IMG/VR virus record: IMGVR_UViG_3300021964_012356
Span: 1 to 31,370 of that record
Reading direction: 5' to 3' (one strand)
Source: a virus
DNA length: 31,370 nt
The translations under genes and the position numbers were made by a program. The notes under the pieces were generated by a model. That model ran no database searches. It was not told where the DNA came from and saw only the letters and a list, made by a program, of their open reading frames with translations. Shown in pieces: positions 1-23,695 of the stretch; positions within the stretch are counted from its first letter, which is position 1; every line of letters starts with the position of its first letter.

Positions 1-1896
1 GATGTTATCATTGTAGAGATAGACGAGAAGTCCATTGAGCAGTATGGTCAGTGGCCCTGGAAGAGAGATGTCATTGCAGACATAATAGGACGCCTGCGAG
101 AAGCCGGTGCTGGAGTGATAGTATTGCCTATTTTATTTTCAGAAGAGGATAGACTGGGCGGCGATGATGCCCTGATCAGCCAACTGTATCAGAATGGTGT
201 GGTCATAGCACAGGTAGGAACCACACAGACCAATCGTAACGCGGTACCACGTGGAGTAGCCAAGATAGGTGATCCATTACCATGGTTATACGAATGGCCG
301 GGTATGCTGGGTCCTATCAAAGACATTGGATCATCAGCAGACGGTGTGGGAGTGATCAACACAGCACCCGAAATAGACGGTGTGGTCAGACGTATCCCAT
401 TATTGATGCGTGTTGGAGAAGAAGTGTATCCTGCAATGGCCATTGAGGTCATCAGGGTAGCGGTGGGTGATCCTTCCTATCAGGTCAAGGCCGGACAAGG
501 TGGAATCATTGCGATGAGAATTCCCCAGTATCAAACCATACAAACAGACGCCAATGCTCGAATATGGTTGCGTTGGAACAAACAATTTGACAGCATCTCG
601 GCAGTGGATGAATTTAAAAATTTAAATGGTAAAATTGCCATAGTTGGTATTACCGCGGAAGGCCTGGGCGGTGTTATAGCCACACCAAATGGAGAAGCAT
701 ATTCACACCTCACAACCGCTGTTTCTCTACAGACCATCATCAATGGAGACACAATCGTTAGATTCGATTATGCGACCTTTTTGGAGTATACGAGTGCCGC
801 TATAATAGCCTTTATTCTAATTTTAAGCGCCGCTTACGCCCCATATTGGTTGGTGGGCACACTGTTGATCCTGACCTACACAGGCACCGCATACGCTTCG
901 TATTTTGCGTTTACAAGGCACCTACAACTGTGGGACGTCAGTTGGTTATGGATGGTTATTACCATTACCAGTTTCCATGCTGTGTTCAATCGCTTCATCA
1001 AAGAATTTTTTGAGAAACAACAGATCAAGAAACAGTTTGGCGGTTATGCTTCACCCATGGTGGTGGAGATGCTTCAGAAGAATCCTACGTTGATCAAACA
1101 AGGTATCAAGAAAGAAGTCAGCATATGTTTTTCAGACCTGAGAGGATTCACTCCACTGGGAGAATCATTCGGAGACGATGTGCAAGGATTGACTCGCATT
1201 ATGAATGGTTACATGGATGCCATCACGCAACCTGTGTTGGATGCCAATGGCATGATAATCAAATACATCGGCGATGCCTCCATGCACATCCACAATGCTC
1301 CCATCGATGATGTTGATCACCCTAAAACAGCAGTGCAGACAGGGTTGAACATGTTGAAAGCGGTTGAAAAGTTCAATGAAAAAATCATGCTCGAAGGCAG
1401 ACCTGCTGTGGGCATGGGTGCTGGCATCAACACTGGACTGGGCTACATCGGTGAGATGGGTAGCACACAGCGGCATTCATATGACGTGCTGGGAGATGCT
1501 GTTTCAACAACTGCCAGATTGGAGTCACAGTGCAAGAACTATGGGGTATTATTGATAGTTGGGCCAGAAACCTATCAGAGAACCAAAGACGACTTCCTGT
1601 ATCTCAAACTGGACGACCTTGCAGTCAAAGGCAAGACAGTTGGTTTAGAGATCTATACGGTACTGGACCTGGACCGATCAAAACATAAGGAAGAGGTCGA
1701 TCGCCATAACGAGATGCACAAGTTGTACAGGCAACAGGAGTTTCAGAAAGCAATAGGCAAGTGTGTTAATCTACAGGATGCTTTCGAAGGGCATATGGCG
1801 GATTATTACAAGATGTGGATGGAACGTTGCCAATACATGAAAACCCAGATGCTACCAGCCGACTGGAACGGCACGTTCGTTGCTACTTCAAAATAG
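1..1896 (+). CDS. CHASE2-domain class III adenylate cyclase, 5' truncated by window edge
   Basis: The reading frame is open from base 1, so the true start lies to the left; 631 residues are visible. Residues 1 to about 255 are a CHASE2 sensor domain (opening VEIDEKSIEQYGQWPW and later a PILFSEEDR stretch match its conserved start). About 256-335 hold three membrane segments, so the sensor faces the periplasm. After a linker (FGGYASPMVVEML) comes a class III cyclase domain: metal-binding Asp379 (CFSDLRGFT) and Asp425 (KYIGDAS), adenine-selecting Lys421 and Asp495 (YDVLGDAV) and transition-state Arg506. The partner transition-state Asn is Ser502. These residues predict ATP to cAMP, possibly at reduced rate. 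CHASE2-3TM-cyclase proteins are known from bacterial chromosomes; in a phage context this is unexpected. It ends 1 nt before a convergent gene. Family call is firm; activity is inferred. Confidence 0.93.
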   Translation, partial: DVIIVEIDEKSIEQYGQWPWKRDVIADIIGRLREAGAGVIVLPILFSEEDRLGGDDALISQLYQNGVVIAQVGTTQTNRNAVPRGVAKIGDPLPWLYEWPGMLGPIKDIGSSADGVGVINTAPEIDGVVRRIPLLMRVGEEVYPAMAIEVIRVAVGDPSYQVKAGQGGIIAMRIPQYQTIQTDANARIWLRWNKQFDSISAVDEFKNLNGKIAIVGITAEGLGGVIATPNGEAYSHLTTAVSLQTIINGDTIVRFDYATFLEYTSAAIIAFILILSAAYAPYWLVGTLLILTYTGTAYASYFAFTRHLQLWDVSWLWMVITITSFHAVFNRFIKEFFEKQQIKKQFGGYASPMVVEMLQKNPTLIKQGIKKEVSICFSDLRGFTPLGESFGDDVQGLTRIMNGYMDAITQPVLDANGMIIKYIGDASMHIHNAPIDDVDHPKTAVQTGLNMLKAVEKFNEKIMLEGRPAVGMGAGINTGLGYIGEMGSTQRHSYDVLGDAVSTTARLESQCKNYGVLLIVGPETYQRTKDDFLYLKLDDLAVKGKTVGLEIYTVLDLDRSKHKEEVDRHNEMHKLYRQQEFQKAIGKCVNLQDAFEGHMADYYKMWMERCQYMKTQMLPADWNGTFVATSK

Positions 1897-1897
1897 A

Positions 1898-2224
1898 TTA
1901 TTTTTTAGTGTCACCTGTTGAATCGAACGATTCCGATTGGCTCTTATATTTTTTAAGTATCTCGTCCAGTTCATCACTACGACCGGACTTTATGATCTCT
2001 TCCTTGTACTCCAGCACCATGGCCAGTTTGGTGTTCAAACGGATCATGTCATTGTCCAACATTCGCACACGATCCACTAATTTAATAAGTGTGCTAGAAG
2101 CGTCACCTAATACTGGTTTGATTTCTTCTGTGACCCATTTCCAAATGTAGAATACAAAATAGCCAAGGCCCATGGCGGCCACGATGGGAAATCCAAAATC
2201 TTTGATTGTCTGTGCTATGTCCAT
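1898..2224 (-). CDS. Small membrane protein with coiled coil (YvrJ-like), paralogue 1
   Basis: 108 residues. An N-terminal GFPI motif leads into one membrane segment (about residues 10-30), then a predicted coiled coil (about 38-80) and a charged C-terminal tail ending DTKK. It aligns along most of its length with the protein at 2354-2635: both have the GFPI start, the membrane helix, then a heptad-like stretch with a D-N-D/N-N-D core and a hydrophobic L-x-x-VL end. The GFPI-plus-helix start resembles the YvrJ family of small phage and Bacillus proteins, a weak match. Its ATG overlaps the stop of the upstream 48-aa gene (TAATG), so the two are probably translationally coupled. Function unknown; a membrane-anchored oligomer is the reasonable guess. 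Confidence 0.8.
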   Translation of the reverse strand: MDIAQTIKDFGFPIVAAMGLGYFVFYIWKWVTEEIKPVLGDASSTLIKLVDRVRMLDNDMIRLNTKLAMVLEYKEEIIKSGRSDELDEILKKYKSQSESFDSTGDTKK

Positions 2225-2370
2225 TATTTTTTTCTACCTAACTTCTTGATCAATTGCAACCTTCTTTTTATCTTGGTGTCTCTTCTCGCTGTATAGAGCA
2301 CATATGCCATACAACCCAAAATACCAAGCAGGCAAAATATCATTATGTAATGATTAATCACGCCTAGCAT
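2224..2370 (-). CDS. 48-aa single-pass membrane protein between the two YvrJ-like genes
   Basis: A short frame of 48 residues, starting MLGVINHYIMIF, with one hydrophobic segment (about residues 3-27, containing two Cys) followed by a strongly basic tail (ARRDTKIKRRLQLIKKLGRKK has the pattern; the tail is about 20 residues with many Lys and Arg). The positive tail predicts N-out, C-in topology. Its start lies 17 bases inside the end of the upstream gene and its stop TAA shares one base with the ATG of the downstream gene, the spacing expected of a real coupled operon member. No family recognised. Small size is the only reason for doubt. Confidence 0.65.
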   Translation of the reverse strand: MLGVINHYIMIFCLLGILGCMAYVLYTARRDTKIKRRLQLIKKLGRKK

Positions 2371-2635
2371 CCTCCTTGCCCTCGTTGGCGGCTATACGTT
2401 CCACGTTGGGTCTGATCTTCAACACGTGGCTCAACAGTGCATCGATCTTGACCAGGTCATTGTTCATGGTCTGCACCCTGTTGTCCAGTGCGCCTATTAT
2501 GGCCTTCAAAGAATTCACAGATCCTGTCACAGATGCCAGTATGAACTTCAGCGTCACGAACACGAAAAGTCCAGCCGCTATCGCACCTGCGATGGGAAAT
2601 CCTACTTCTGCTACCAATGTTAAAAAATTCATCAT
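2354..2635 (-). CDS. Small membrane protein with coiled coil (YvrJ-like), paralogue 2
   Basis: 93 residues, first gene of a three-gene minus-strand operon. It has a GFPI motif at about residues 12-15, one membrane segment (about 12-34), then a helical heptad-rich region (about 42-72) and a charged tail. It is a diverged copy of the 108-aa protein at 1898-2224. Two starts are possible, ATG at 2635 or the next codon at 2632. A TAAATAC element resembling a phage late promoter lies only 3 nt upstream of the first ATG, which would favour the second ATG or a leaderless message. Function unknown; YvrJ-like or holin-related are the two ideas, neither proved. Confidence 0.8.
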   Translation of the reverse strand: MMNFLTLVAEVGFPIAGAIAAGLFVFVTLKFILASVTGSVNSLKAIIGALDNRVQTMNNDLVKIDALLSHVLKIRPNVERIAANEGKEDARRD

Positions 2636-2907: not shown

Positions 2908-2974
2908 TTAGATTGACTTTTTCCTCCAAATATTCTTAAATAGCATTTTTAATTTGTCACAGGAGGACAATGCT

Positions 2975-3406
2975 ATGAGACCATTAGTACACAAACATTT
3001 GATTGTGCGTGCCGAGGTAAACCATCCACCCAAGGATGAAACTAGGGCAAAAGAATTTTTAAGAGAGCTGATAGAAGGCATCAACATGAAGATCCTGTTT
3101 GGTCCGGAAGCCAAATACGTTGACATGGTCGGCAACAGGGGTCTCACCTGTTTCGCCATCATAGAAACATCTCACGTTGTGATGCACACCTGGGACGAAT
3201 CGTATCCGGCCATGATACAGTTGGATGTCTACACCTGTGGAGAGTTGGACACGGATGTGGTGTTCGATTTTATTAAGCAGTTTGATCCTGTCAAGATAGA
3301 TTACAAGTACCTGGATAGGGAAAAGGACCTGCACGAAATTTCCATGGATAAAAATGCGGACATGGTGATTACCGATATAGCAAAAAGTGAAAATTTCTTG
3401 ATATAA
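2975..3406 (+). CDS. speD: S-adenosylmethionine decarboxylase proenzyme, phage type
   Basis: 143 residues from the ATG at 2975, chosen because a perfect AGGAGG (2961-2966) precedes it by 8 nt; the upstream TTG at 2954 would place that site inside the gene. The small bacterial SpeD/SpeH family self-cleaves at a Ser to make a pyruvoyl group and decarboxylates S-adenosylmethionine for spermidine synthesis. Visible here: cleavage Ser66 in ETSHVVMHTWDE, His71 and Cys88 in LDVYTCGE, the trio that drives processing and catalysis. The residue before the cleavage Ser is Thr rather than the usual Glu. SpeD is a known auxiliary gene of T4-like marine phages, thought to raise polyamines for DNA packing or metabolism; no spermidine synthase is next to it. 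Confidence 0.9.
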   Translation: MRPLVHKHLIVRAEVNHPPKDETRAKEFLRELIEGINMKILFGPEAKYVDMVGNRGLTCFAIIETSHVVMHTWDESYPAMIQLDVYTCGELDTDVVFDFIKQFDPVKIDYKYLDREKDLHEISMDKNADMVITDIAKSENFLI

Positions 3407-8428: not shown

Positions 8429-9463
8429 ATGGTAAAAAGAATTGGATTCTGTTGTAAGTGGTTGAATGATCATTCAGAATTTGGAGGAATGAAAGTAAAT
8501 GCCAAAGACAGAGATCTGAATGGCAGAAGCACCACAATGAGATGGTTGCGAGAACACCCCGAAGATGCCGAACAAAGACAGTGGGACATCATGAATCACA
8601 ACGCCGAAGCGGCGAGAAAGATGGTGGAAAGAGTTGGTTCCTTGCCACCCGAGCGTAGAATGGTGAGACTAGGCAGTGAAATGCTCCAAGGGTACACAGA
8701 GGCCAATTGGATCGATTGGTGGCAACAACCTAACATACAAAACCATTTAGGAAAAATATTTGCCCCAGTGGGTGATGCCGCTAGGAAACTTGATGTCAAA
8801 GTCAGTTTCCATCCAGGTCAGTTCTGTGTGCTGGCATCTCACAACGAAGATGTCGTAGAAAGAAGCATCAAAGAATTCGAGTACCACGTGGACATGGCGA
8901 GATGGATGGGCTTTGGAAAGTCGTGGCATGACAACTGCAAGATCAACGTACACATATCGGGACGACAAGGACCCGATGGCATTATAAAAGTGTTACCCAG
9001 GTTGTCACCAGAGGCACGTAATCTTATCACTATCGAGAACGACGAGATGGGCCATGGACTTGAAAAGAGTTTGGAACTTGCCAAGCATGTGGCATTGGTT
9101 CTAGATATACACCATCATTGGATACGTGACGAGGAATACATAGATCCCAGCGATGACAGGGTAAAAATGGTGATAGATTCCTGGCGTGGGATCAGACCCA
9201 CACTGCATTATTCTTACAGCAGAGATGAACACCTTGCACCTGCGGGACTGGGAGAAAACATGCATGGAGAAATGCATGACATCAAGATGCTGTTGGAAAG
9301 AGGCTGTAAGAAACAAAAATTACGTGCCCATTCGGACCTGTTACCCAACCGTGCCGTGAACCAATGGGCATTGAGTTTTTCGGATAATTTTGACATTCAG
9401 ACAGAGGCCAAAGGCAAAAACATGGCGGCTGAACAACTGTACCTGCAGAGTTTGGAAGTTTAG
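8429..9463 (+). CDS. uvsE: UV damage endonuclease UvsE/UVDE
   Basis: 344 residues, full length for the bacterial UVDE family, a TIM-barrel metal enzyme that nicks DNA 5' of UV photoproducts. Signature segments appear in order: RIGFCCKW at the N-terminus, MVRLGSEML, VSFHPGQFCVLAS, INVHISGRQG, ITIENDEMGHG, VLDIHHHWI and PTLHYSYSRDEH, supplying the His, Glu and Asp residues that hold the metal cluster. UVDE genes occur in marine phages and fit a sunlit habitat. It has its own leaderless-type promoter and is followed after 16 nt by the superoxide dismutase gene. Confidence 0.93.
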   Translation: MVKRIGFCCKWLNDHSEFGGMKVNAKDRDLNGRSTTMRWLREHPEDAEQRQWDIMNHNAEAARKMVERVGSLPPERRMVRLGSEMLQGYTEANWIDWWQQPNIQNHLGKIFAPVGDAARKLDVKVSFHPGQFCVLASHNEDVVERSIKEFEYHVDMARWMGFGKSWHDNCKINVHISGRQGPDGIIKVLPRLSPEARNLITIENDEMGHGLEKSLELAKHVALVLDIHHHWIRDEEYIDPSDDRVKMVIDSWRGIRPTLHYSYSRDEHLAPAGLGENMHGEMHDIKMLLERGCKKQKLRAHSDLLPNRAVNQWALSFSDNFDIQTEAKGKNMAAEQLYLQSLEV

Positions 9464-9468
9464 CAAAA

Positions 9469-9474
9469 TAAATA
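9469..9474 (+). promoter_or_regulatory. Late-type promoter element before superoxide dismutase
   Basis: AATAAATACC with no recognisable -35 box 17 nt upstream; 5 nt separate TAAATA from the ATG at 9480. Confidence 0.45.
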
Positions 9475-9479
9475 CCACT

Positions 9480-10028
9480 ATGCGATTCAACGAAATAACA
9501 AAGATGTCATGTCCTAGGACCATGTCCGAGAAATGTTATTGCGAGCAGATCAAAAGCATAACCGAGTCAACGCAGTCTGTTAAAGCCATGTGCGAACTAC
9601 AACACAGTGATAAAGTATCTGGCAAAATACTGATGTTGCAGTCACCTGGTGGTCCTACCCTGATCAAGGGAAGAATATCCGGACTTGATAAAGGACAACA
9701 TGGTTTCCATATACATGAATTTGGTGACCTTTCCAAAGGTTGTGAATCCGCAGGAGCTCATTACAATCCAGACGGTGTCGATCACGGCGACCTAGACAAA
9801 GGACACGTGGGAGATCTTGGAAACATATCCGCGGATGATTCTGGTGTCGCTGAATTCACAATCGTTGCCAAGAGAGTGGATCTCACAGGAGAACGTTCTG
9901 TGGTTGGTAGAAGTATAGTGATCCACAAGGATCAAGACGACCTCGGCAAAGGCGGGGACGCAGAATCATTAAAAACTGGTAACGCTGGCGACAGGCTTGC
10001 TTGTGGCATCATTGTTCTCAAAGGGTAA
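9480..10028 (+). CDS. sodC: Cu/Zn superoxide dismutase
   Basis: 182 residues from ATG 9480, next to a promoter-like TAAATACC; the longer frame from 9390 would run through the uvsE 3' end and is unlikely. A 40-residue N-terminal extension with several Cys (CPRTMSEKCYC) precedes a complete Cu/Zn SOD domain. Ligands are all present: Cu His77, His79, His94 and His149, Zn His94, His102, His109 and Asp112, the disulfide pair Cys88 and Cys175, and the guiding Arg172 (GDRLACG). Strand-loop GKGGDAESLKTGNAGD is intact. There is no signal peptide, so it should act in the cytoplasm or be packaged in the virion, unlike typical bacterial periplasmic SodC. Reaction: superoxide to oxygen and peroxide. Confidence 0.94.
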   Translation: MRFNEITKMSCPRTMSEKCYCEQIKSITESTQSVKAMCELQHSDKVSGKILMLQSPGGPTLIKGRISGLDKGQHGFHIHEFGDLSKGCESAGAHYNPDGVDHGDLDKGHVGDLGNISADDSGVAEFTIVAKRVDLTGERSVVGRSIVIHKDQDDLGKGGDAESLKTGNAGDRLACGIIVLKG

Positions 10029-10040
10029 TTGTTGTATAAT
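10012..10040 (+). promoter_or_regulatory. Sigma70-type promoter before the radical SAM gene
   Basis: TTGTTC at 10012-10017 (weak -35), exact 17-nt spacer, TATAAT at 10035-10040 (perfect -10), then 6 nt to ATG 10047. Confidence 0.58.
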
Positions 10041-10046
10041 ACAAAG

Positions 10047-11060
10047 ATGTTTGATAATATTAATCAATGGCCGTTAGATCATTGGCACATAGAGATCAGT
10101 AGCAAGTGCAGTCTTATGTGTCCGCGGTGTAGCAGGCAGGAAGTGCCTGAGGGTTTAGTAAACACAGATCTAGGATTGGATTGGTTCAAAGGAAATTTCG
10201 ATAGATTAATTACCCATGCCAAAAAAATAACCTTCTGCGGGGATGACGGAGATCCTATCTATGCCCGAGAGTTTATACCCGTGCTCAAATGGATGCGTAA
10301 AAGTAATCCCGATATTCAGTTTGTAATTGTCACGAATGGTAGTTACAAAACTCCTAAATGGTGGGAAAATCTCAACAGGGTATTGAATGAAAGAGACAAC
10401 GTGCATTTCAGTATTGACGGATGGGATCATGAATCCAACAATCAATATCGTGTGAACAATGATTGGGACAGCATTATGAAAGGTGCTGATCTACTGACCA
10501 ACCCCATCAAGACCTGGGCCATGATAGTTTTTAAATACAACGAGGATCACATAGACAGGATAAGGACAAGAGCCGTAGAACACAATTTTGATTATTTTCA
10601 GATTACTCATAGCAGTAAGTTTGTGTCTAACTATGCGAACTATCCCACTCTAGATCCCTTAGAGCCAAATAAAAATTATGTAGCCAAAGGTAGATTTGTA
10701 AGAGAATTAGAAAATATATCTAAATACAAATGGAAAGATAGTTGTTATGAAACATTCGCCAGCACCTATAGAAATATGTCAAAATCAAAGATAATGCCAT
10801 TGTGCAGGGTCGGTAACAAAGGACTTTACATAAATTCCAGAGGTGAATTCTATCCTTGTTGTTGGACAGGACTTAGATATGACCACAACAAAAATCTTTT
10901 TCACGTCAGTATGATAAAGGCGAATACGTTGGAAGAATCGATGAACAATCAGGGCTGGACAAAATTTTACAAAGAGATGAATTCTGGCAACTGTCCAAAA
11001 GAATGTTCAGAGAAATGTAATCTAGAAAAATGGAACCTCGAACACGCTACACAATGGTAA
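10047..11060 (+). CDS. Radical SAM protein with SPASM-type C-terminal cysteines
   Basis: 337 residues from ATG 10047 (TTG codons at 10029 and 10032 lie inside the promoter). Cys21, Cys25 and Cys28 (CSLMCPRC) form the CxxxCxxC site for the catalytic 4Fe-4S cluster; FCGDDGDPIYAREF takes the place of the SAM-binding GGE motif. The C-terminus has further cysteines in a SPASM-like arrangement: CRVGNKGLYINSRGEFYPCC followed by NCPKECSEKC, expected to hold auxiliary clusters. SPASM enzymes usually modify peptides or proteins, but no precursor peptide is obvious. An A-type Fe-S carrier lies two genes downstream and could mature this enzyme. Substrate unknown. Confidence 0.88.
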   Translation: MFDNINQWPLDHWHIEISSKCSLMCPRCSRQEVPEGLVNTDLGLDWFKGNFDRLITHAKKITFCGDDGDPIYAREFIPVLKWMRKSNPDIQFVIVTNGSYKTPKWWENLNRVLNERDNVHFSIDGWDHESNNQYRVNNDWDSIMKGADLLTNPIKTWAMIVFKYNEDHIDRIRTRAVEHNFDYFQITHSSKFVSNYANYPTLDPLEPNKNYVAKGRFVRELENISKYKWKDSCYETFASTYRNMSKSKIMPLCRVGNKGLYINSRGEFYPCCWTGLRYDHNKNLFHVSMIKANTLEESMNNQGWTKFYKEMNSGNCPKECSEKCNLEKWNLEHATQW

Positions 11061-11338
11061 AACATAAAACTAAAAATGGATATCTTCAAAAATTCAGATA
11101 CAACATGACTTGGGGAGATCATGGAATATCGGGAGAGATAATCGAATGGTGCCGTAAAAACTGTAAAGGAAATTGGGGTTGGTGGTTTTATGAAAATGGA
11201 AACAAAAATGAATGGCACCCAGAAAACTATACTGCCTACGTCAGTTTCAGCAGAAAAAGAGATTATATGAAATTCTGGATGACTAACTGCAGATTGATAG
11301 AACAACTTAAAAAAGAAAATCAAAAACATGACCGATAA
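11054..11338 (+). CDS. Small aromatic-rich phage protein
   Basis: 94 residues from ATG 11054, which overlaps the radical SAM stop (ATGGTAA); an ATG at 11030 would add eight residues. It is rich in Trp, Tyr, Lys and Asn, with a conserved-looking centre CKGNWGWWFYENG and a following strand TAYVSFSRKRDYMKFWM. The pattern, WxxWF then YVSF then a RD-containing helix, is one I associate with short unnamed proteins of T4-like marine phages. Between a radical SAM enzyme and an Fe-S carrier it might be a partner or substrate of the former, but nothing in the sequence proves this. Confidence 0.75.
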   Translation: MVKHKTKNGYLQKFRYNMTWGDHGISGEIIEWCRKNCKGNWGWWFYENGNKNEWHPENYTAYVSFSRKRDYMKFWMTNCRLIEQLKKENQKHDR

Positions 11339-11672
11339 AGATATATTCACAATCACAGAAAACGCAAAAAAACAGATGGAAAAACTGTTGCTAAACAATC
11401 CAAACAAACATGCGGTCAGCCTTTCAGTGCTTGGTGGCGGCTGTGCTGGTTTTAAATATCACTGGGATTTCATTGACAAAGCGAGCGACATAAAGCAAGA
11501 TGATCATGTTGTGGAATGGAACGACGGAAAGTTTGTGGTAGATGGAGTAAGCATGTTTTACGTTATGGGCACAATTATAGATTGGAAAGAAGAAGTCTTT
11601 GGTTCAAACTTTGAGATAAAAAATCCTAACGCTACAGCAGGGTGTGGATGTGGAGAGAGTTTCGCTGTGTGA
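11328..11672 (+). CDS. A-type iron-sulfur cluster carrier (IscA/ErpA-like)
   Basis: 114 residues, normal length for the family. The three cluster-binding cysteines are in place: Cys39 in LGGGCAGFKY and Cys106 and Cys108 in the terminal GCGCGESF. The N-terminal ITENAKKQMEKLL also matches. A-type carriers receive Fe-S clusters and pass them to apo-enzymes; phage-encoded copies are known in marine T4-like phages. Here the likely client is the radical SAM protein at 10047-11060 in the same transcription unit. The start overlaps the preceding gene and the stop overlaps the next start (TGATG). Confidence 0.92.
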   Translation: MTDKDIFTITENAKKQMEKLLLNNPNKHAVSLSVLGGGCAGFKYHWDFIDKASDIKQDDHVVEWNDGKFVVDGVSMFYVMGTIIDWKEEVFGSNFEIKNPNATAGCGCGESFAV

Positions 11673-12436: not shown

Positions 12437-12726
12437 ATCTGTCTTCTGCCTATTTCAACCACACTGCTGGCGTCCATCTTGTAGATGTTCCTCATCTTGA
12501 CACCAACCGATTGGGCAAATTTTTTTGTGTTACAACCACTGCATACGTGTTTGTAATCGTTGGTGGCTCTTGAGGGGTCAACTTTTGCTCGGGGCCTCAG
12601 AAAGGTACTGTTACAGCAGTCACAACGGAAAATATACACAGTGTTTGATCTTTTGTAGGTGTGATAGAAGCCAAGTTTGCTTTTGCGTTCGTATAGCCGG
12701 ATCATCTTGATTGTTTCTAGGAACAT
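12433..12726 (-). CDS. Zinc-ribbon protein, possible DNA-binding regulator
   Basis: 97 residues. Two cysteine knuckles, FRCDCCNSTFLRPR (near residues 33-46) and HVCSGCNTKKF (near 60-70), form a Cys4-type zinc ribbon with basic residues around it. N-terminal MIRLYERKSKLGFYHTYKR is basic and could contact nucleic acid. This layout is familiar from short proteins of T4-like marine phages, without a tested function. It is read away from the fibre cluster, from a TAAATA element at 12740-12745, and ends tail-to-tail with paralogue B. ATG 12726 is used; an internal ATG at 12705 is possible. Confidence 0.72.
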   Translation of the reverse strand: MFLETIKMIRLYERKSKLGFYHTYKRSNTVYIFRCDCCNSTFLRPRAKVDPSRATNDYKHVCSGCNTKKFAQSVGVKMRNIYKMDASSVVEIGRRQI

Positions 12727-12739
12727 AACAGTTCAACAA

Positions 12740-12745
12740 TATTTA
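12740..12745 (-). promoter_or_regulatory. Late-type promoter element, minus strand half of a divergent pair
   Basis: TTAAATATTG on the minus strand, 13 nt upstream of ATG 12726. Only one base separates it from the plus-strand TAAATA, making a TATTTA/TAAATA palindrome. Confidence 0.45.
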
Positions 12746-12746
12746 A

Positions 12747-12752
12747 TAAATA
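12747..12752 (+). promoter_or_regulatory. Late-type promoter element driving the tail-fibre cluster
   Basis: TTAATAAATACTCG is the closest match in the window to the T4 late promoter (TATAAATACTCC). ATG 12767 follows the core after 14 nt. Confidence 0.6.
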
Positions 12753-12766
12753 CTCGTACATTATAT

Positions 12767-13246
12767 ATGGCAAGATTAACAATTGATTTAGGAACAACAG
12801 GAAATTCAGCAACGGGCGACTCCGTTAGGGGCGCATTCAACAAATGCAATTTAAATTTCCAAGAACTCTATAACACTTCCGCCGCGGATGGTGTGCTCAC
12901 CACTGGGGTAACCAACGGTGACGTGAGGATACAACCCAACGGCACCGGATCGATCGAGATAGATCAACTTAAAATAGACAGTTCTGCCATCACTTCCATA
13001 GGCACCAATTCGGACATTACAATCACTGCCAACGGTACCGGAAATATCGTACTAGGACAGATCACCATTGCTGACAACGTAATCAAGACAAACACATCGA
13101 ATTCAAATCTACAGATCGACGCTTCCGGAACAGGGGCAGTTGAAATTTTAACACAGAAGGTAATAATGGCGAATTTGCCAACATCGGCGGCTGGGCTGGC
13201 CACGGGCCAACTTTACAACGACGGTGGAACTCTTAAGATAGCATAA
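12767..13246 (+). CDS. Short tail-fibre protein with repeat strands (fibre 1)
   Basis: 159 residues from ATG 12767. The N-terminus (LTIDLGTTGNSATGDSVR, then F-x-x-LNFQELYNT) is a diverged copy of the motif that opens the next three fibres. The body has about three copies of a 28-30-residue repeat, (I-x-x-N-x-I-x-x-x-x-SN-x-DI-x-I-x-x-x-GTG-x-V), expected to form a beta-helix or triple-stranded rod. The C-terminus is short: GLATGQLYNDGGTLKIA, a trimming-type end seen in phage fibre tips. It heads a polycistronic run; its stop overlaps the next start (TAATG). Structural role is inferred from repeats and context. Confidence 0.78.
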   Translation: MARLTIDLGTTGNSATGDSVRGAFNKCNLNFQELYNTSAADGVLTTGVTNGDVRIQPNGTGSIEIDQLKIDSSAITSIGTNSDITITANGTGNIVLGQITIADNVIKTNTSNSNLQIDASGTGAVEILTQKVIMANLPTSAAGLATGQLYNDGGTLKIA

Positions 13247-14280
13247 TGCCTAGGAACATATTAAACGTGGGTATAGTGGCCAATGATGGCACCGGTGACG
13301 ATTTCAGGGTGGCAGGGCAAAAGATCAATGATAACTTCGAAGAACTTTACGCGGAAACCGGTGTAGACACACAGATCGATTTTGACGGCAACAACATAAT
13401 AAGCACACTGTCAAACGCGGACATCAATATCATTCCCAGTGGGTCGGGTGTGGTTAGACTGCCTGCTCTGCGTTTCAATGGCAACAACATTGAGGCTATC
13501 AGGTCCAACGATGACATAAATTTGATAGGTTCGGGATCAGGCGGCGTTGCTTTGTCCCAGGTGGTGTTTACACAAAACGAGATCAGCGTCGCAGGCAACA
13601 ACAGCGACATAGACTTGACGCCAAGTGGTATTGGCCAAGTTGCGATTGATAACCTTGTAGTGGATAACCAGATCAATATTGTTGGAACCAGGATAGATGC
13701 AGTTGCCAGCAATTCGGACATCGTTCTTTATGCATCGGGTACAGGACAGTTGAAGATCGACAGTGTTATTATCAAACACAACACGGTCAAAACCAACATC
13801 AGCAACGAAGACCTAGAATTGACCGCCAGCGGATCAGGCACTGTAAAGTTAAATGATTTTAATTTACCATCAACAGATGGCACCACCAACCAATTTCTTA
13901 CCACTGACGGAAACAAAAACCTGTCATTCTCAACCCCGAGTCTGACGCTGTCTCTGTCCGACATCGACGACAACAGTGTTTCCAATACCGGAAGTGCCCA
14001 ATTTACGTTGGACAGTTTTGATTCGGCCACTTTCAGTGGTGCGGCTTACACACTGAGCATATCAGACACTACCAACGACAGGCATGAATGCGTAGATGTT
14101 GGTGTGATACACGACGGCTCCGTCGCATATGTGAACGATAATACATCTGTGACCAACTACACAGGATCTCTTTTGACCCTAGACGCAGATATAAGTGGTG
14201 GCAACGTTAGATTACTTGCTACTCCAATAAGTAACGACAGCATTACAATTAAATTTATAAGAAGGATTTTTGATGCCTAG
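13246..14280 (+). CDS. Tail-fibre protein with beta-rod repeats (fibre 2)
   Basis: 344 residues. N-terminal anchor motif ILNVGIVANDGTGDDFR, KINDNFEELY; about five repeats of the SN-x-DI-x-L-x-x-SGSG-x-V type between residues 35 and 210; then a hinge (TTNQFLTTDGNKNLSF) and a globular C-terminal domain (about 230-344) that includes SFDSATFSGAAYTLSI, HECVDVGVIHDG and DADISGGNVRLLATPIS. The whole architecture and length match fibre 3 downstream, so the pair arose by tandem duplication. The C-terminal domain is the likely receptor-binding or trimerisation tip. Start and stop overlap the neighbouring genes. Confidence 0.8.
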   Translation: MPRNILNVGIVANDGTGDDFRVAGQKINDNFEELYAETGVDTQIDFDGNNIISTLSNADINIIPSGSGVVRLPALRFNGNNIEAIRSNDDINLIGSGSGGVALSQVVFTQNEISVAGNNSDIDLTPSGIGQVAIDNLVVDNQINIVGTRIDAVASNSDIVLYASGTGQLKIDSVIIKHNTVKTNISNEDLELTASGSGTVKLNDFNLPSTDGTTNQFLTTDGNKNLSFSTPSLTLSLSDIDDNSVSNTGSAQFTLDSFDSATFSGAAYTLSISDTTNDRHECVDVGVIHDGSVAYVNDNTSVTNYTGSLLTLDADISGGNVRLLATPISNDSITIKFIRRIFDA

Positions 14281-15304
14281 ACATATTATCGACATAGGAA
14301 GCAACGCGAACGACGGCACCGGTGACACTCTGCGTGACGCCATGATCAAAATCAACGACAATTTTATTGAGTTGTACAACGAAACAGCGGTTGACTCGGG
14401 CATCACTATTTCGGGTAACAACATATCAGCAAACAGGTCAAATGACGACGTAGTTTTCGTGCCGGCAGGATCCGGCGCCGTGACATTTCCTGGTATAAAA
14501 ATAGATGACAACAACATTGTGGCCACAAGGTCAAATGATAATCTTAACCTTGTTCCAAGTGGATCGGGCGTTGTGAACTTGGGCTCTATCACGATAAGCG
14601 GAAACAATATATCAGGCACAAGGTCAAACGAAGACATCAATATAACTCCTTCAGGAACAGGAACGGTCAACATACCAAACCTTACTGTGGATGGTAGTAT
14701 CAACATCACAGACAACGAGATCAAAACTATTGCCTCAAACACGGACCTCTTGCTTTCTGCTTCTGGCACAGGATCGGTGATTGTGGACAGCATATCTATC
14801 AGAGACAACACGATCACAACCAATCAATCAAACGCAGATCTCGAGCTTTCCGCCAACGGAACAGGAACAGTGAGCATTAACGCCCTTAAATTCCCCACCG
14901 CTGACGGAGGGGCAGGAACATTCCTTAAAACAGATGGTAGCGGTAATTTGAGTTTTGCCAGTGCGGGACTCACGCTCAACCACAGCGAGATATCAGATTC
15001 CACTTACACCAGCAGTTCCAGTTCACAACAAAGTATCAATAGTTTTGATGCGGCATCATACAGAAGTGCCAAATACTTTATTTCGGTCAAAGATGCAGAT
15101 AATAATAGATATGAATTATCAGAGGTAGTAGTCACACACGACGGAGTAAACGGTTACGCGGCATCCACATCAGTGTCCAGCACCGGTGGAGCACTGGCAT
15201 CGTACGATGCCGATATAAGCGGCGGAAATGTTAGATTGCTCATGACACCAATCAGCAATAATTCCACAGTTTTCAAACTTCAAAGACTGTTAATTGACAT
15301 TTAG
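14273..15304 (+). CDS. Tail-fibre protein with beta-rod repeats (fibre 3)
   Basis: 343 residues from ATG 14273, with an AAGGA site upstream. It repeats the plan of fibre 2: IIDIGSNANDGTGDTLR, KINDNFIELY; five repeats such as GNNISGTRSNEDINITPSG; FLKTDGSGNLSFASAG hinge; C-terminal domain with SINSFDAASYRSAKYFISV, YELSEVVVTHDG and DADISGGNVRLLMTPIS. The SGGNVRLL-x-TPIS end is nearly identical to fibre 2 while the middle of the tip differs, the pattern expected if the tip is under selection for host range. Overlaps fibre 2 by 8 nt. Confidence 0.8.
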   Translation: MPRHIIDIGSNANDGTGDTLRDAMIKINDNFIELYNETAVDSGITISGNNISANRSNDDVVFVPAGSGAVTFPGIKIDDNNIVATRSNDNLNLVPSGSGVVNLGSITISGNNISGTRSNEDINITPSGTGTVNIPNLTVDGSINITDNEIKTIASNTDLLLSASGTGSVIVDSISIRDNTITTNQSNADLELSANGTGTVSINALKFPTADGGAGTFLKTDGSGNLSFASAGLTLNHSEISDSTYTSSSSSQQSINSFDAASYRSAKYFISVKDADNNRYELSEVVVTHDGVNGYAASTSVSSTGGALASYDADISGGNVRLLMTPISNNSTVFKLQRLLIDI

Positions 15305-15331
15305 ATTACATCAGGTTTATAAAAAATAAAA

Positions 15332-15337
15332 TAAATA
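15332..15337 (+). promoter_or_regulatory. Late-type promoter element before fibre 4
   Basis: AATAAATAACT, 7 nt upstream of ATG 15345, in the 40-base gap after fibre 3. Starts a new unit inside the fibre cluster. Confidence 0.45.
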
Positions 15338-15344
15338 ACTGCAT

Positions 15345-16886
15345 ATGGCACAACAGACAATTAACATAGGTTCTACAGCAAATGACGGTACAGGTGATCC
15401 GTTAAGAACAGCATTTGATAAAATAAACGACAACTTCAATGAGTTGTATGGAACAACAGCAGAAGCCAATGACTTGATCGAGGATACATCTCCACAACTT
15501 GGAGGCAACCTTGATGTAAATGGACAAAGAATAGTTACAGTAAGATCAAACGAAGACATCGTGTTAGATGCCGCTGGAACTGGTGAGGTTGTCATGGAAG
15601 GTGACACCAGAGTCAAAGGAGACCTTTACGCAGAAGGAAGAATTTATCTAGGTGATGATGCCGCTGATATCACACAGATCACAGGAAAATTAGAAGTCGA
15701 TTCTTTGGAATTCGATGGAGCCACAATAACAGGTTTAGTGACCAACGGTGATATCACAATCACACCAGAAGGTACAGGAAATGTTGTGCTATCCAAAGAA
15801 ACTACAATAGCAGAACAACTTACCGTAGACAGCAATATCAGAATCAGAGATAACGTAATTGAGGCCACTGCTTCAAATTCAGATATTGTGATCAATGCCG
15901 CTGGCACAGGAAATGTAGTAGCCGGAGCAATCAGAATAGCAAACAGCACAATCAGTTCAGACGATTCAACATTGGTAACCATAGCAGATGGTGTAAGGAT
16001 CACAGGAAACTCAGAGATGCAAGGAACAGCATCAGTGACAGGTGCCACCACTTTATCAAGCACACTGGCAGTGACAGGTGCGGTGACTTTGAGTGATACT
16101 CTTTCTGTCTCGGGTGCTACCACCATGGTGGGAAACACAACTATAGACAATATTATCATTAATGATTCTACAATCTCAACAGCGAGTAACGCCGACCTGA
16201 ACCTACAACCAGGTGGCACAGGAAATATAGTGGCTGGTGCTGTCACAATCAATGGAACAACTTTCAGTTCAACAGATTCTACAAAAATAACACTAGCAGA
16301 AAATGTTGACGTCACAGGCACATTAACCACAGCAAACATCAGCACGGTGGGAACACAAACAATCAACGGCACTTTAAATGTTGACTTCATAACAATCAAA
16401 GACAATGAAATTACCTCGAACGCTTCCGACAGCGATATCAACATCACCGCATCAGGCACAGGAAGTGTTGTAATCAACAGTCCGATAAGTTTACCAAACA
16501 ACCAAGACGTGAGCATCACAGGTTCGTTGGCAGTTGACAACATCACTGTAAATGGAAACACAATTTCAAGCACAACCGGTGGAATCACATTGACAGCGGC
16601 CGCTGGACAAACGGTTACTTCGTCAAGTCTGTTCACAGCAGGTGAGATACAGGCTACATTGATCGAAGGTACGACTATCAGAACAGACAAAATCCAAAGT
16701 GATACCTCCAACGGAGATATCTTGATAGACACTCAAGGAACTGGTGTTCTCGACATCAGAACAGCAACACAATCATCAGTTGGATCGGCTGGCGGAGCAA
16801 GTGCTTTACCTGCCACACCTACCGGTTACATCGAAGTAAAAGTCGGTGGTACAGCATACGTTATACCGTACTACGCTAAATCATAA
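15345..16886 (+). CDS. Long tail-fibre protein (fibre 4)
   Basis: 513 residues. It opens with the clearest version of the shared anchor, TINIGSTANDGTGDPLR, KINDNFNELYGTT, then runs through about a dozen related strands: GTGEVVMEG, LEVDSLEFDGATITG, TASNSDIVINAAGTGNV, and a Ser/Thr-rich part (ATTLSSTLAVTGAVTLSDT). The C-terminus is short and distinct: ASALPATPTGYIEV, KVGGTAYVIPYYAKS, as in other marine myovirus fibre tips. Long antisense open frames across this gene are caused by its repeat codons. Likely the distal fibre or baseplate-attached fibre; the exact T4 counterpart cannot be told. Confidence 0.8.
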   Translation: MAQQTINIGSTANDGTGDPLRTAFDKINDNFNELYGTTAEANDLIEDTSPQLGGNLDVNGQRIVTVRSNEDIVLDAAGTGEVVMEGDTRVKGDLYAEGRIYLGDDAADITQITGKLEVDSLEFDGATITGLVTNGDITITPEGTGNVVLSKETTIAEQLTVDSNIRIRDNVIEATASNSDIVINAAGTGNVVAGAIRIANSTISSDDSTLVTIADGVRITGNSEMQGTASVTGATTLSSTLAVTGAVTLSDTLSVSGATTMVGNTTIDNIIINDSTISTASNADLNLQPGGTGNIVAGAVTINGTTFSSTDSTKITLAENVDVTGTLTTANISTVGTQTINGTLNVDFITIKDNEITSNASDSDINITASGTGSVVINSPISLPNNQDVSITGSLAVDNITVNGNTISSTTGGITLTAAAGQTVTSSSLFTAGEIQATLIEGTTIRTDKIQSDTSNGDILIDTQGTGVLDIRTATQSSVGSAGGASALPATPTGYIEVKVGGTAYVIPYYAKS

Positions 16887-20323: not shown

Positions 20324-20965
20324 ATGTCTAAAAGATCGTTCACTTGGAACACTAACTTCAAATCAATAATAGTTGTAGACAGCGAACTGTTCGTCAACAC
20401 CTATGATGTCAAACTTCATATCCAACCAGTGACAGGTGATCTACAGGAACAAAGTTACTACTTTGAGAGACTAAAATTTTTATTCAGCAGTGTTTTTGGT
20501 AACACCATTGTATTAGATACCAACGAACCTTTGTACCAAATACTAAAAACCAGCACATCAAACAGGTTTATTCAATTACCAAAACCGCCTTTTGATCAAA
20601 TCATGGCCGGTGTCTGTTTTACAAAGTCAAATGCTGTTCTTGATGGTAAGATATTTGTTAATCAGTTAGAACTATCAAGTTACCAAGGCGACGGAATTAC
20701 CTACAGTGTGGGCAAGGACTCACCCGAATTAGATCTTTTAGATGTTGACAATTGGTTCTCAGAAAAATATAATACATTTGACCCATGGTGGTTGAGAGCC
20801 GACACAGCAACATATGACGAAGAACTTAAAAAAGGCATATACACAGGTCACTTCAATTGGTATGGAAACAATAATGAAAAACTAGTCGACGACAAAGAAA
20901 AACATGCTAAAATATTTAAATTTAACTCAAAGGTTATAGAAGGTGGCAAAGACAAAAAGAAATGA
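20324..20965 (+). CDS. Phage protein of unknown function upstream of DnaE-like gene
   Basis: 213 residues from ATG 20324 (an in-frame TTG at 20321 is less likely). The N-terminal two thirds look like an alpha/beta domain (SIIVVDSELFVNTYDVKL, FGNTIVLDTNEPLYQIL, IMAGVCFTKSNAVLDGKIF); the C-terminal third is acidic and aromatic (NTFDPWWLRADT, FNWYGNNNEKL) and ends in a Lys-rich tail. No catalytic motif seen. It overlaps the next gene by 23 nt, so it may work with the DnaE-like protein, which is inference from position only. Confidence 0.72.
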   Translation: MSKRSFTWNTNFKSIIVVDSELFVNTYDVKLHIQPVTGDLQEQSYYFERLKFLFSSVFGNTIVLDTNEPLYQILKTSTSNRFIQLPKPPFDQIMAGVCFTKSNAVLDGKIFVNQLELSSYQGDGITYSVGKDSPELDLLDVDNWFSEKYNTFDPWWLRADTATYDEELKKGIYTGHFNWYGNNNEKLVDDKEKHAKIFKFNSKVIEGGKDKKK

Positions 20966-21464
20966 GTATGGACAATGTTTTTTTGAAGAGGACGAAGTTT
21001 TGGAACATATCTACAGCAACCCAGATGCTGAACTTCACAAACTGTATATAAACAATTACGAAAAATTCAATCAATCTATAAAGTCCACAGGTATAGACAT
21101 GACACTGTTACCGGAACCACCTGTGGTCCAACATTCAATAGAAACTTTTGATCAGACTTATATCAACGACTGGAACATGCCCGACAGTTACAAACAAATG
21201 GATCTTAAGTCATATCTGTTAGACAAATGTCAAAATGAATCTGAAATACAAAGAGTAAATGATGAATATAGTCAGTTCGAAAGTAAAAAGTTTTTAGACG
21301 TACTTAAATTTTTGGTATATTTTGTGGACACTCTTAGGAAAAATAATGTTGTATGGGGACTCGGAAGAGGCAGTTCAGTGTCCAGTTTCTGTCTTTTTCT
21401 AATCGGAGTACACAAAATAAACCCAATTGTGTATGATTTAGATTTCAACGAATTTATGAGATGA
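20943..21464 (+). CDS. DnaE-like (C-family polymerase) palm fragment
   Basis: 173 residues from GTG 20943; no other start is near. The C-terminal third aligns with bacterial DNA polymerase III alpha: KFLDVLKFLVYFVDTLRKN matches the helix before the palm, WGLGRGSSVSSFCLFLIG matches the nucleotide-binding GRGSAAGS loop, and HKINPIVYDLDFNEFMR matches the DPLxYDLLFERF stretch. The frame stops exactly there, before the PDxDxDF residues that hold the catalytic metals. There is no second part downstream: the next gene is unrelated. The N-terminal part has no PHP domain. It cannot be a polymerase as it stands; a structural or regulatory remnant is possible. The likeness is fairly strong. Confidence 0.75.
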   Translation: MAKTKRNEYGQCFFEEDEVLEHIYSNPDAELHKLYINNYEKFNQSIKSTGIDMTLLPEPPVVQHSIETFDQTYINDWNMPDSYKQMDLKSYLLDKCQNESEIQRVNDEYSQFESKKFLDVLKFLVYFVDTLRKNNVVWGLGRGSSVSSFCLFLIGVHKINPIVYDLDFNEFMR

Positions 21465-22765: not shown

Positions 22766-23695
22766 ATGAAAGAATTATGGGTAGAAAAATACAGACCAAA
22801 AAGCCTAAAAGAATATGTTGTTCGTGATGAAAATCAAAGACAGCAGATACAAGGATGGATAAAAGATGGTGCTGTGCCTCATCTATTATTTTCCGGTGCT
22901 CCAGGCACAGGAAAAACAACACTAGCAAAAGTTTTGTTCGAGGAATTGAAGGTTGACCCATACGACATCTTAGAGATAAACGCATCGAGAGAAAATTCTG
23001 TGGACACTGTGAGAGACAAGATTATAAATTTTGTACAGATAATGCCTTTTGGGGCATTCAAATATGTTTTATTGGACGAGGCGGATTATATTACGCCAAA
23101 TGGTCAAGCGGCACTGCGTGGTGTGATGGAGATGTATCATACATCTGCTAGGTTTGTGTTGACCTGTAACTATCCAAACAGGGTGATCCCGGCACTACAT
23201 TCTAGGTGTCAAGGATTCCATATCGAGACGTTAGACAAAAATGAATTTACAGCACGTGTGGCAGAGATACTGATTGCAGAAAAAGTAGACCCAGACATCG
23301 AGTTGATAGACACATACGTTAAGGCAACTTATCCTGACATGAGGAAGTGCATAAATTTGGTGCAGATGAATTCGCGTGATGGCAAATTACATGCTCCCGA
23401 TAAATCGGACAAAGGTCAAGCAGACTATAGATTAGACATGGTGGAATTATTTAAAGCAGGCAAAATATTAGAAGCAAGGAAACTTGTGTGTTCTCAGGCA
23501 AGACCAGAAGAAGTTGAAGAGATATTTAGGTGGTTGTATGATAATCTTGATCTTATATCAAAGGATGATGACGGTCAAGACAAAGCCATTCTCGCAATAA
23601 AACAAGGATTGGTAGATCATTCATTCGTTGCTGATCCAGAAATTAATCTTGCGGCAACAATGATAAAATTAGCAAGGATACACAATGGGCAGTAA
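22766..23695 (+). CDS. 44: Sliding-clamp loader ATPase (T4 gp44 / RFC small subunit type)
   Basis: 309 residues, AAA+ protein that with gp62 loads the gp45 clamp. WVEKYRPKSLKEYV at the N-terminus is the RFC box; Walker A GAPGTGKTT at residues 44-52; Walker B VLLDEADYI; sensor 1 in FVLTCNYPNRV; and the SRC motif with arginine finger in LHSRCQGF. The C-terminal collar helices follow. Length fits T4 gp44 (319 aa). Neither gp45 nor a clear gp62 is in the window; the 89-aa gene that follows sits where gp62 would be but does not resemble it. Confidence 0.93.
   Translation: MKELWVEKYRPKSLKEYVVRDENQRQQIQGWIKDGAVPHLLFSGAPGTGKTTLAKVLFEELKVDPYDILEINASRENSVDTVRDKIINFVQIMPFGAFKYVLLDEADYITPNGQAALRGVMEMYHTSARFVLTCNYPNRVIPALHSRCQGFHIETLDKNEFTARVAEILIAEKVDPDIELIDTYVKATYPDMRKCINLVQMNSRDGKLHAPDKSDKGQADYRLDMVELFKAGKILEARKLVCSQARPEEVEEIFRWLYDNLDLISKDDDGQDKAILAIKQGLVDHSFVADPEINLAATMIKLARIHNGQ

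Follow-up and report, generated by a model that had tools for sequence, protein, structure and literature searches.

The window, meaning the whole 31,370-nucleotide stretch of DNA that was analysed, has the same length as its viral record, and the record begins at base 1 inside the reading frame of a gene for a CHASE2-class III nucleotidyl cyclase (Table 1). This frame runs without interruption from base 1 to a stop codon at 1894–1896 and encodes 631 C-terminal residues. The window protein enters the PHROG 35576 profile at position 52 of 681, and its full-length relative, gp104 of phage Melnitz, has 683 residues; approximately 52 N-terminal residues, the first membrane helix among them, are therefore missing.

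Table 1. Positions of the cyclase gene, its domains and active-site residues, and the two genes that follow it
Feature	Position (nt)	Strand	Basis
CHASE2-class III nucleotidyl cyclase gene, 5′-truncated by the record end	1–1896	+	ORF, Pfam, PHROG, comparison with Melnitz
CHASE2 extracytoplasmic sensor domain, residues 2–275	4–825	+	Pfam PF05226, E 9e-38, 130.7 bits
Three membrane helices, residues 258–279, 282–307 and 314–346	772–1038	+	AlphaFold secondary structure; predicted topology
Exchangeable catalytic cassette	1042–1860	+	DNA alignment with relatives whose catalytic type differs
Class III cyclase catalytic domain (Guanylate_cyc), residues 370–546	1108–1638	+	PF00211, E 4e-16
Metal-binding Asp379	1135–1137	+	Alignment
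Base-recognition Lys421	1261–1263	+	Alignment
Metal-binding Asp425	1273–1275	+	Alignment
Base-recognition Asp495 (Ser/Thr in all examined bacterial CHASE2 cyclases)	1483–1485	+	Alignment
Ser502 replacing the transition-state Asn	1504–1506	+	Alignment; Asn there in solved cyclases
Transition-state Arg506	1516–1518	+	Alignment
C-terminal helical tail, end motif PxDWxGxxxATxK	1675–1893	+	Alignment, AlphaFold model
Small phrog_18771 membrane protein, tail coiled-coil-like; part of the curli/FecR/cyclase module	1898–2224	-	PHROG, relatives' loci
Second small membrane protein, same family; 68% identical to Melnitz gp97	2354–2635	-	PHROG, relatives' loci

The protein has the layout of a CHASE2 sensor protein, in which CHASE2 is followed by membrane helices (residues 258–346) and then by an output domain. 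Hydropathy gave a single strong segment, at residues 257–291; the three helices were taken from an AlphaFold model built with 33 homologues (mean pLDDT 88), in which the third helix continues into the cyclase transducer region. The catalytic domain scored 59.8 bits against PF00211, for which the cut-off is 21.9, and its closest solved fold was that of Pseudomonas aeruginosa CyaB (3r5g; TMt 0.89, Foldseek E 1.7e-16).

Alignment and Pfam agree with the preliminary description, made from the sequence alone, which had identified a CHASE2 cyclase that keeps both metal-binding Asp residues, the Lys/Asp pair and the transition-state Arg, and has Ser502 for Asn; the kept residues are Asp379 and Asp425, Lys421 and Asp495, and Arg506. 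Fold, profile and both metal-binding Asp residues are those of a class III cyclase. The transition-state pair of Asn and Arg is incomplete, with Arg506 kept and Ser502 in place of Asn, both in the window protein and in every relative with Asp at 495 and Ser at 502 (referred to as D/S, the other types being S/N and T/N). The assignment to class III is thus made on the predicted fold and the other features, and no canonical catalytic set is claimed. In studied class III cyclases the Asn at this position orients the substrate, and Asn mutants are poor enzymes; the Lys/Asp pair serves adenine recognition in class IIIa adenylate cyclases. The C-terminal tail with its PxDWxGxxxATxK motif is common to most sampled bacterial CHASE2 cyclases and missing from most S/N-type phage cyclases.

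In tblastn comparisons the window protein matched proteins of two isolate phages, Melnitz (66% identity over the full length) and HTVC008M (49% identity over 81%), whose genes are already annotated as adenylate/guanylate cyclases. A scan of IMG/VR found relatives of the cyclase, with 40–82% identity, on at least 80 contigs. The search for homologues in phage genomes proposed in the preliminary description therefore succeeded, and the claim of a phage-borne CHASE2 cyclase is upheld by both isolates and many contigs. The accompanying statement that such sensor-cyclases belong to bacterial chromosomes is too narrow, as the two isolate genes are annotated and PMC9599517 discusses such a cyclase.

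The gene adjoins the record boundary and has cellular relatives, as would also be the case for a fragment of host chromosome, a prophage edge or a chimeric contig. However, relatives of the cyclase are flanked by phage genes on both sides, in complete isolate genomes and in dozens of contigs, and the small genes that follow the cyclase keep their linkage to it in relatives. Phage sequences are also separated from all 79 bacterial ones on the CHASE2 tree (support 0.999), and even the best bacterial relatives share only about 32% identity with the window cyclase. As the record stops at base 1, what lies to the left was judged from these relatives, and they contradict the leftward host chromosome or chimeric contig against which the preliminary description had cautioned, and we reject this reading as hardly credible. 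The window cyclase is truly phage-borne.

The remainder of the window is a tailed-phage genome, with a clamp loader, PhoH, baseplate and tail-fibre proteins, clp and head genes. The clamp loader (22766–23695, +) has its nearest matches in the PA5oct group of Pseudomonas jumbo phages (52%), and HTVC008M and Melnitz are not among its best ten matches; the phage may therefore belong to a distant lineage that shares the module described below with these two isolates. Other genes of the window include a Cu/Zn superoxide dismutase (9390–10028, +; PF00080, E 5e-45), a radical SAM/SPASM protein near an Fe-S assembly (HesB-type) protein (10029–11672), and four tandem, related tail-fibre/baseplate-connector-like proteins with internal repeats (12677–16886, +), which have one N-terminal motif in common, around ANDGTGD...INDNFxELY. 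The window also encodes a short, free-standing DnaE-like fragment of 173 residues, part of a C-family DNA polymerase (20943–21464, +; PF07733), and PHROG 11127 was matched along almost its entire length.

The gene order in both isolates is csgF-csgG-curlin repeat-FecR-curlin repeat-cyclase, with the cyclase last. Genes for CsgF, CsgG and FecR were present in 34 of the 36 loci whose flank upstream of the cyclase measures at least 6.5 kb; the two exceptions (L056 and L058) stop no more than 1.3 kb downstream, on the side where the csg/FecR cassette lies in their sister locus L057. From these relatives we infer csg/FecR partners for the window cyclase, whose place would lie beyond the record edge. 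The pair of phrog_18771 genes is found with the module in most loci; it precedes csgF in HTVC008M and in Melnitz (where gp97 is upstream of csgF), and elsewhere it follows the cyclase. The two minus-strand genes that follow the window cyclase are part of the same module. The preliminary description had placed the end of the cyclase 1 nt from a phage-like gene cluster; the spacing is correct, but these neighbours are convergent with the cyclase and belong to its own module. Searches of the two small proteins against Pfam and NCBIfam gave nothing significant. The genes before csgF in the isolates (L082:7147–7785 and L083:6782–7344) encode hypothetical membrane proteins of about 92–115 residues. 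Histidine kinases before csgF are reported in podoviruses in PMC9599517; Pfam detected no kinase domain in the Melnitz pair at this place. An S-adenosylmethionine decarboxylase gene is found at 2954–3406 (+) in the window and also near the cyclase module in L022, L038 and L039.

Among 80 bacterial CHASE2 cyclase loci, a FecR gene was next to or near the cyclase in 26, so the pairing of FecR with CHASE2 has a cellular precedent; csgG was near the cyclase in none of the 80. A FecR-CHASE2 kinase operon affects biofilm in Burkholderia (PMC5192318). In this analysis the union of FecR-CHASE2 with curli export was seen only in phages.

The residues at positions 495 and 502 could be read in 78 phage sequences, of which 36 were D/S, 28 S/N and 14 T/N, with no other pair. 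The 80 bacterial cyclases, taken as the best CHASE2 cyclase loci in the genome collection, were S/N (58) or T/N (22). When a profile of the D/S catalytic domain was run against 786 genomes of Alpha- and Gammaproteobacteria, the best 77 matching proteins all had Asn at 502. The D/S type was thus found in none of the 157 bacterial CHASE2 cyclases examined, all of which have Asn at 502 and Ser or Thr at 495, and no cellular source of the D/S domain was seen among the best 80 loci or the best 77 profile matches. D/S sequences are monophyletic on the catalytic-domain tree (support 1.0) and have Ile at position 420, where all 122 other sequences have Asp. A second phage sample of 78 loci was D/S throughout, with invariant Ile420, His429, His431, Glu485, Asp495 and Ser502; this sample was collected with the D/S catalytic domain as query, and is hence biased, and some of its loci are on contigs of the first. 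The combination of Asp495 and Ser502 marks a monophyletic catalytic lineage, confined to phages among the sequences examined. The replacement of Asn by Ser pointed out in the preliminary description is therefore real, and marks the whole lineage rather than a local mutation.

The metal-binding Asp pair, Lys and Arg were kept in all D/S sequences read. The median dN/dS was 0.054 in the D/S catalytic domain and 0.114 in the CHASE2 domain of the same D/S sequences. We take the D/S form to be a maintained enzyme variant under strong purifying selection, and not a product of decay.

Catalytic type requires three changes on the phage catalytic tree versus 11 on the phage CHASE2 tree. The clearest pair is L002 (D/S) and L034 (S/N), whose proteins are 97% identical in CHASE2 and 42% identical in the catalytic domain. 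Their DNA is 92% identical up to L002:1165, cannot be aligned through the catalytic domain, and is 96% identical again from L002:1980, just past the stop codon. An assembly chimera is unlikely as the cause, because identity resumes after the domain and because the swapped form occurs in two metagenomes, L033 having the same form as L034. Similarity of the window DNA to L034 and L022 ends at nucleotide 1041 and restarts at 2027 and 1861 respectively, whereas similarity to the D/S-type L002 is unbroken across the catalytic domain. Conversely, the window and L042 are 83% identical in the catalytic domain and 35% identical in CHASE2. These alignments indicate that phages exchange the catalytic domain as a cassette beneath a conserved sensor, which suggests that among phages diversifying selection acts on the output enzyme as well as on the sensor.

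We think that the D/S cyclase is catalytically active, and cAMP would be its likelier product because the Lys/Asp pair is kept. Given the role of Asn in studied cyclases, Ser502 may mean low activity or a different reaction. The gene probably encodes an active, homodimeric phage sensor-cyclase that forms the output arm of the curli/FecR module and signals to a host receptor, with presumed activity, product, ligand, receptor and benefit. The module would comprise a CsgG/CsgF outer-membrane pore, curlin-repeat proteins, a periplasmic FecR-domain protein, the two small membrane proteins and the cyclase. CHASE2 would lie in the periplasm, linked by the membrane helices and the transducer helix to the class III domain in the cytoplasm. 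A homodimer is suggested by the presence of a single cyclase in each of 12 phage records out of 12. The gene neighbourhood points to FecR or the state of curli export as the probable input, so that during infection the state of the periplasm or envelope would be converted into a cyclic nucleotide in the infected cell and sensed by a host receptor. Proteins with the cNMP-binding domain PF00027 were found in none of 20 phage records, which included two complete isolate genomes, while a control was positive in 10 of 14 genomes; the signal would therefore be expected to act on a receptor of the host.

The same active-site differences could mean that the D/S domain makes a product other than cAMP (cGMP, cCMP, cUMP or another), which differs from the host signal or escapes host receptors or phosphodiesterases. 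The changes in or near the active site are coordinated and fixed in the lineage (Ile420, His429, His431, Glu485, Asp495, Ser502 and Thr503), and domains of different type are swapped beneath the same sensor. However, Lys/Asp is the adenine pair of class IIIa and the base pocket gives no pointer away from ATP, and we consider another product unlikely. That every member has lost a conserved transition-state residue would also fit a degenerate domain with the role of a scaffold, of a switch that binds nucleotides or of a heterodimer subunit; this is quite improbable, as the metal-binding Asp pair, Lys and Arg are invariant, dN/dS is very low and no second cyclase that could act as partner was seen in the 12 phage records. 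PADLOC profiles of PycC match the window catalytic domain (E 2e-14), and match other phage cyclases more strongly, as would be expected of a Pycsar-type defence cyclase directed against competing phages. Common descent within class III accounts for this match. Pycsar systems are not characterised by a CHASE2 sensor or curli partners, no cNMP-binding effector was found in the 20 phage records and the module neighbours are without a PF00027 domain. We reject a Pycsar identity, whose likelihood is very small.

A bolder extension of the sensor-cyclase reading, doubtful but worth stating, is that a phage-invented cyclase lineage, marked by Asp495/Ser502, Ile420, His429 and His431, produces a signal, or uses a way of producing one, that is foreign to cellular CHASE2 cyclases, and that marine phages swap the cassette beneath a fixed sensor to alter the output, for example to match or evade host receptors. 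If the cyclase is active, phages would bring second-messenger signalling into marine bacteria, tied to a phage-encoded amyloid export pore. The D/S lineage also offers a natural case in which to ask if a class III cyclase functions when the transition-state Asn is missing, and what it then makes.

A module of T8SS, FecR and adenylate cyclase genes in SAR11 podo- and myoviruses is described by Wittmers et al. (2022; PMC9599517), and csgGF is reported in HTVC008M and pelagimyophages (PMC7029224). A curli module with a cyclase in pelagiphages has thus been known since 2022. The window would share with it the genes and their order, in marine tailed phages, its own csg/FecR part being predicted from relatives; the HTVC008M cyclase is of the S/N type, whereas that of the window is D/S. 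The parts of PMC9599517 considered do not discuss the CHASE2 sensor, types of catalytic residues or exchange of catalytic domains, and the word 'catalytic' is absent from its text. We found no report of the D/S lineage or of catalytic-cassette exchange in the literature, and a direct-phrase search on phage adenylate cyclases returned nothing; both appear to be new as far as the literature was searched.

Melnitz gp104 (MZ577097, PMC9004378), the full-length match noted above, resembles the window cyclase in being of the D/S type and in belonging to the same module, and differs in the place of the small gene pair, which precedes csgF in Melnitz but in the window follows the cyclase and lies on the opposite strand. 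The Melnitz paper (PMC9004378) discusses CsgGF as a candidate gate for lysis and does not contain the word cyclase. Bacterial CHASE2-class III cyclases such as Sinorhizobium meliloti CyaD1 (PMC5498481) share with the window protein CHASE2, the membrane helices, a class IIIb-like domain and the C-terminal tail, and sometimes adjoin a FecR gene; they differ in their Ser/Thr495 and Asn502, constant in all 157 examined, and in overall sequence. P. aeruginosa CyaB, the best solved fold, is 29% identical to the window protein across the catalytic domain and has Thr and Asn where the window cyclase has Asp and Ser.
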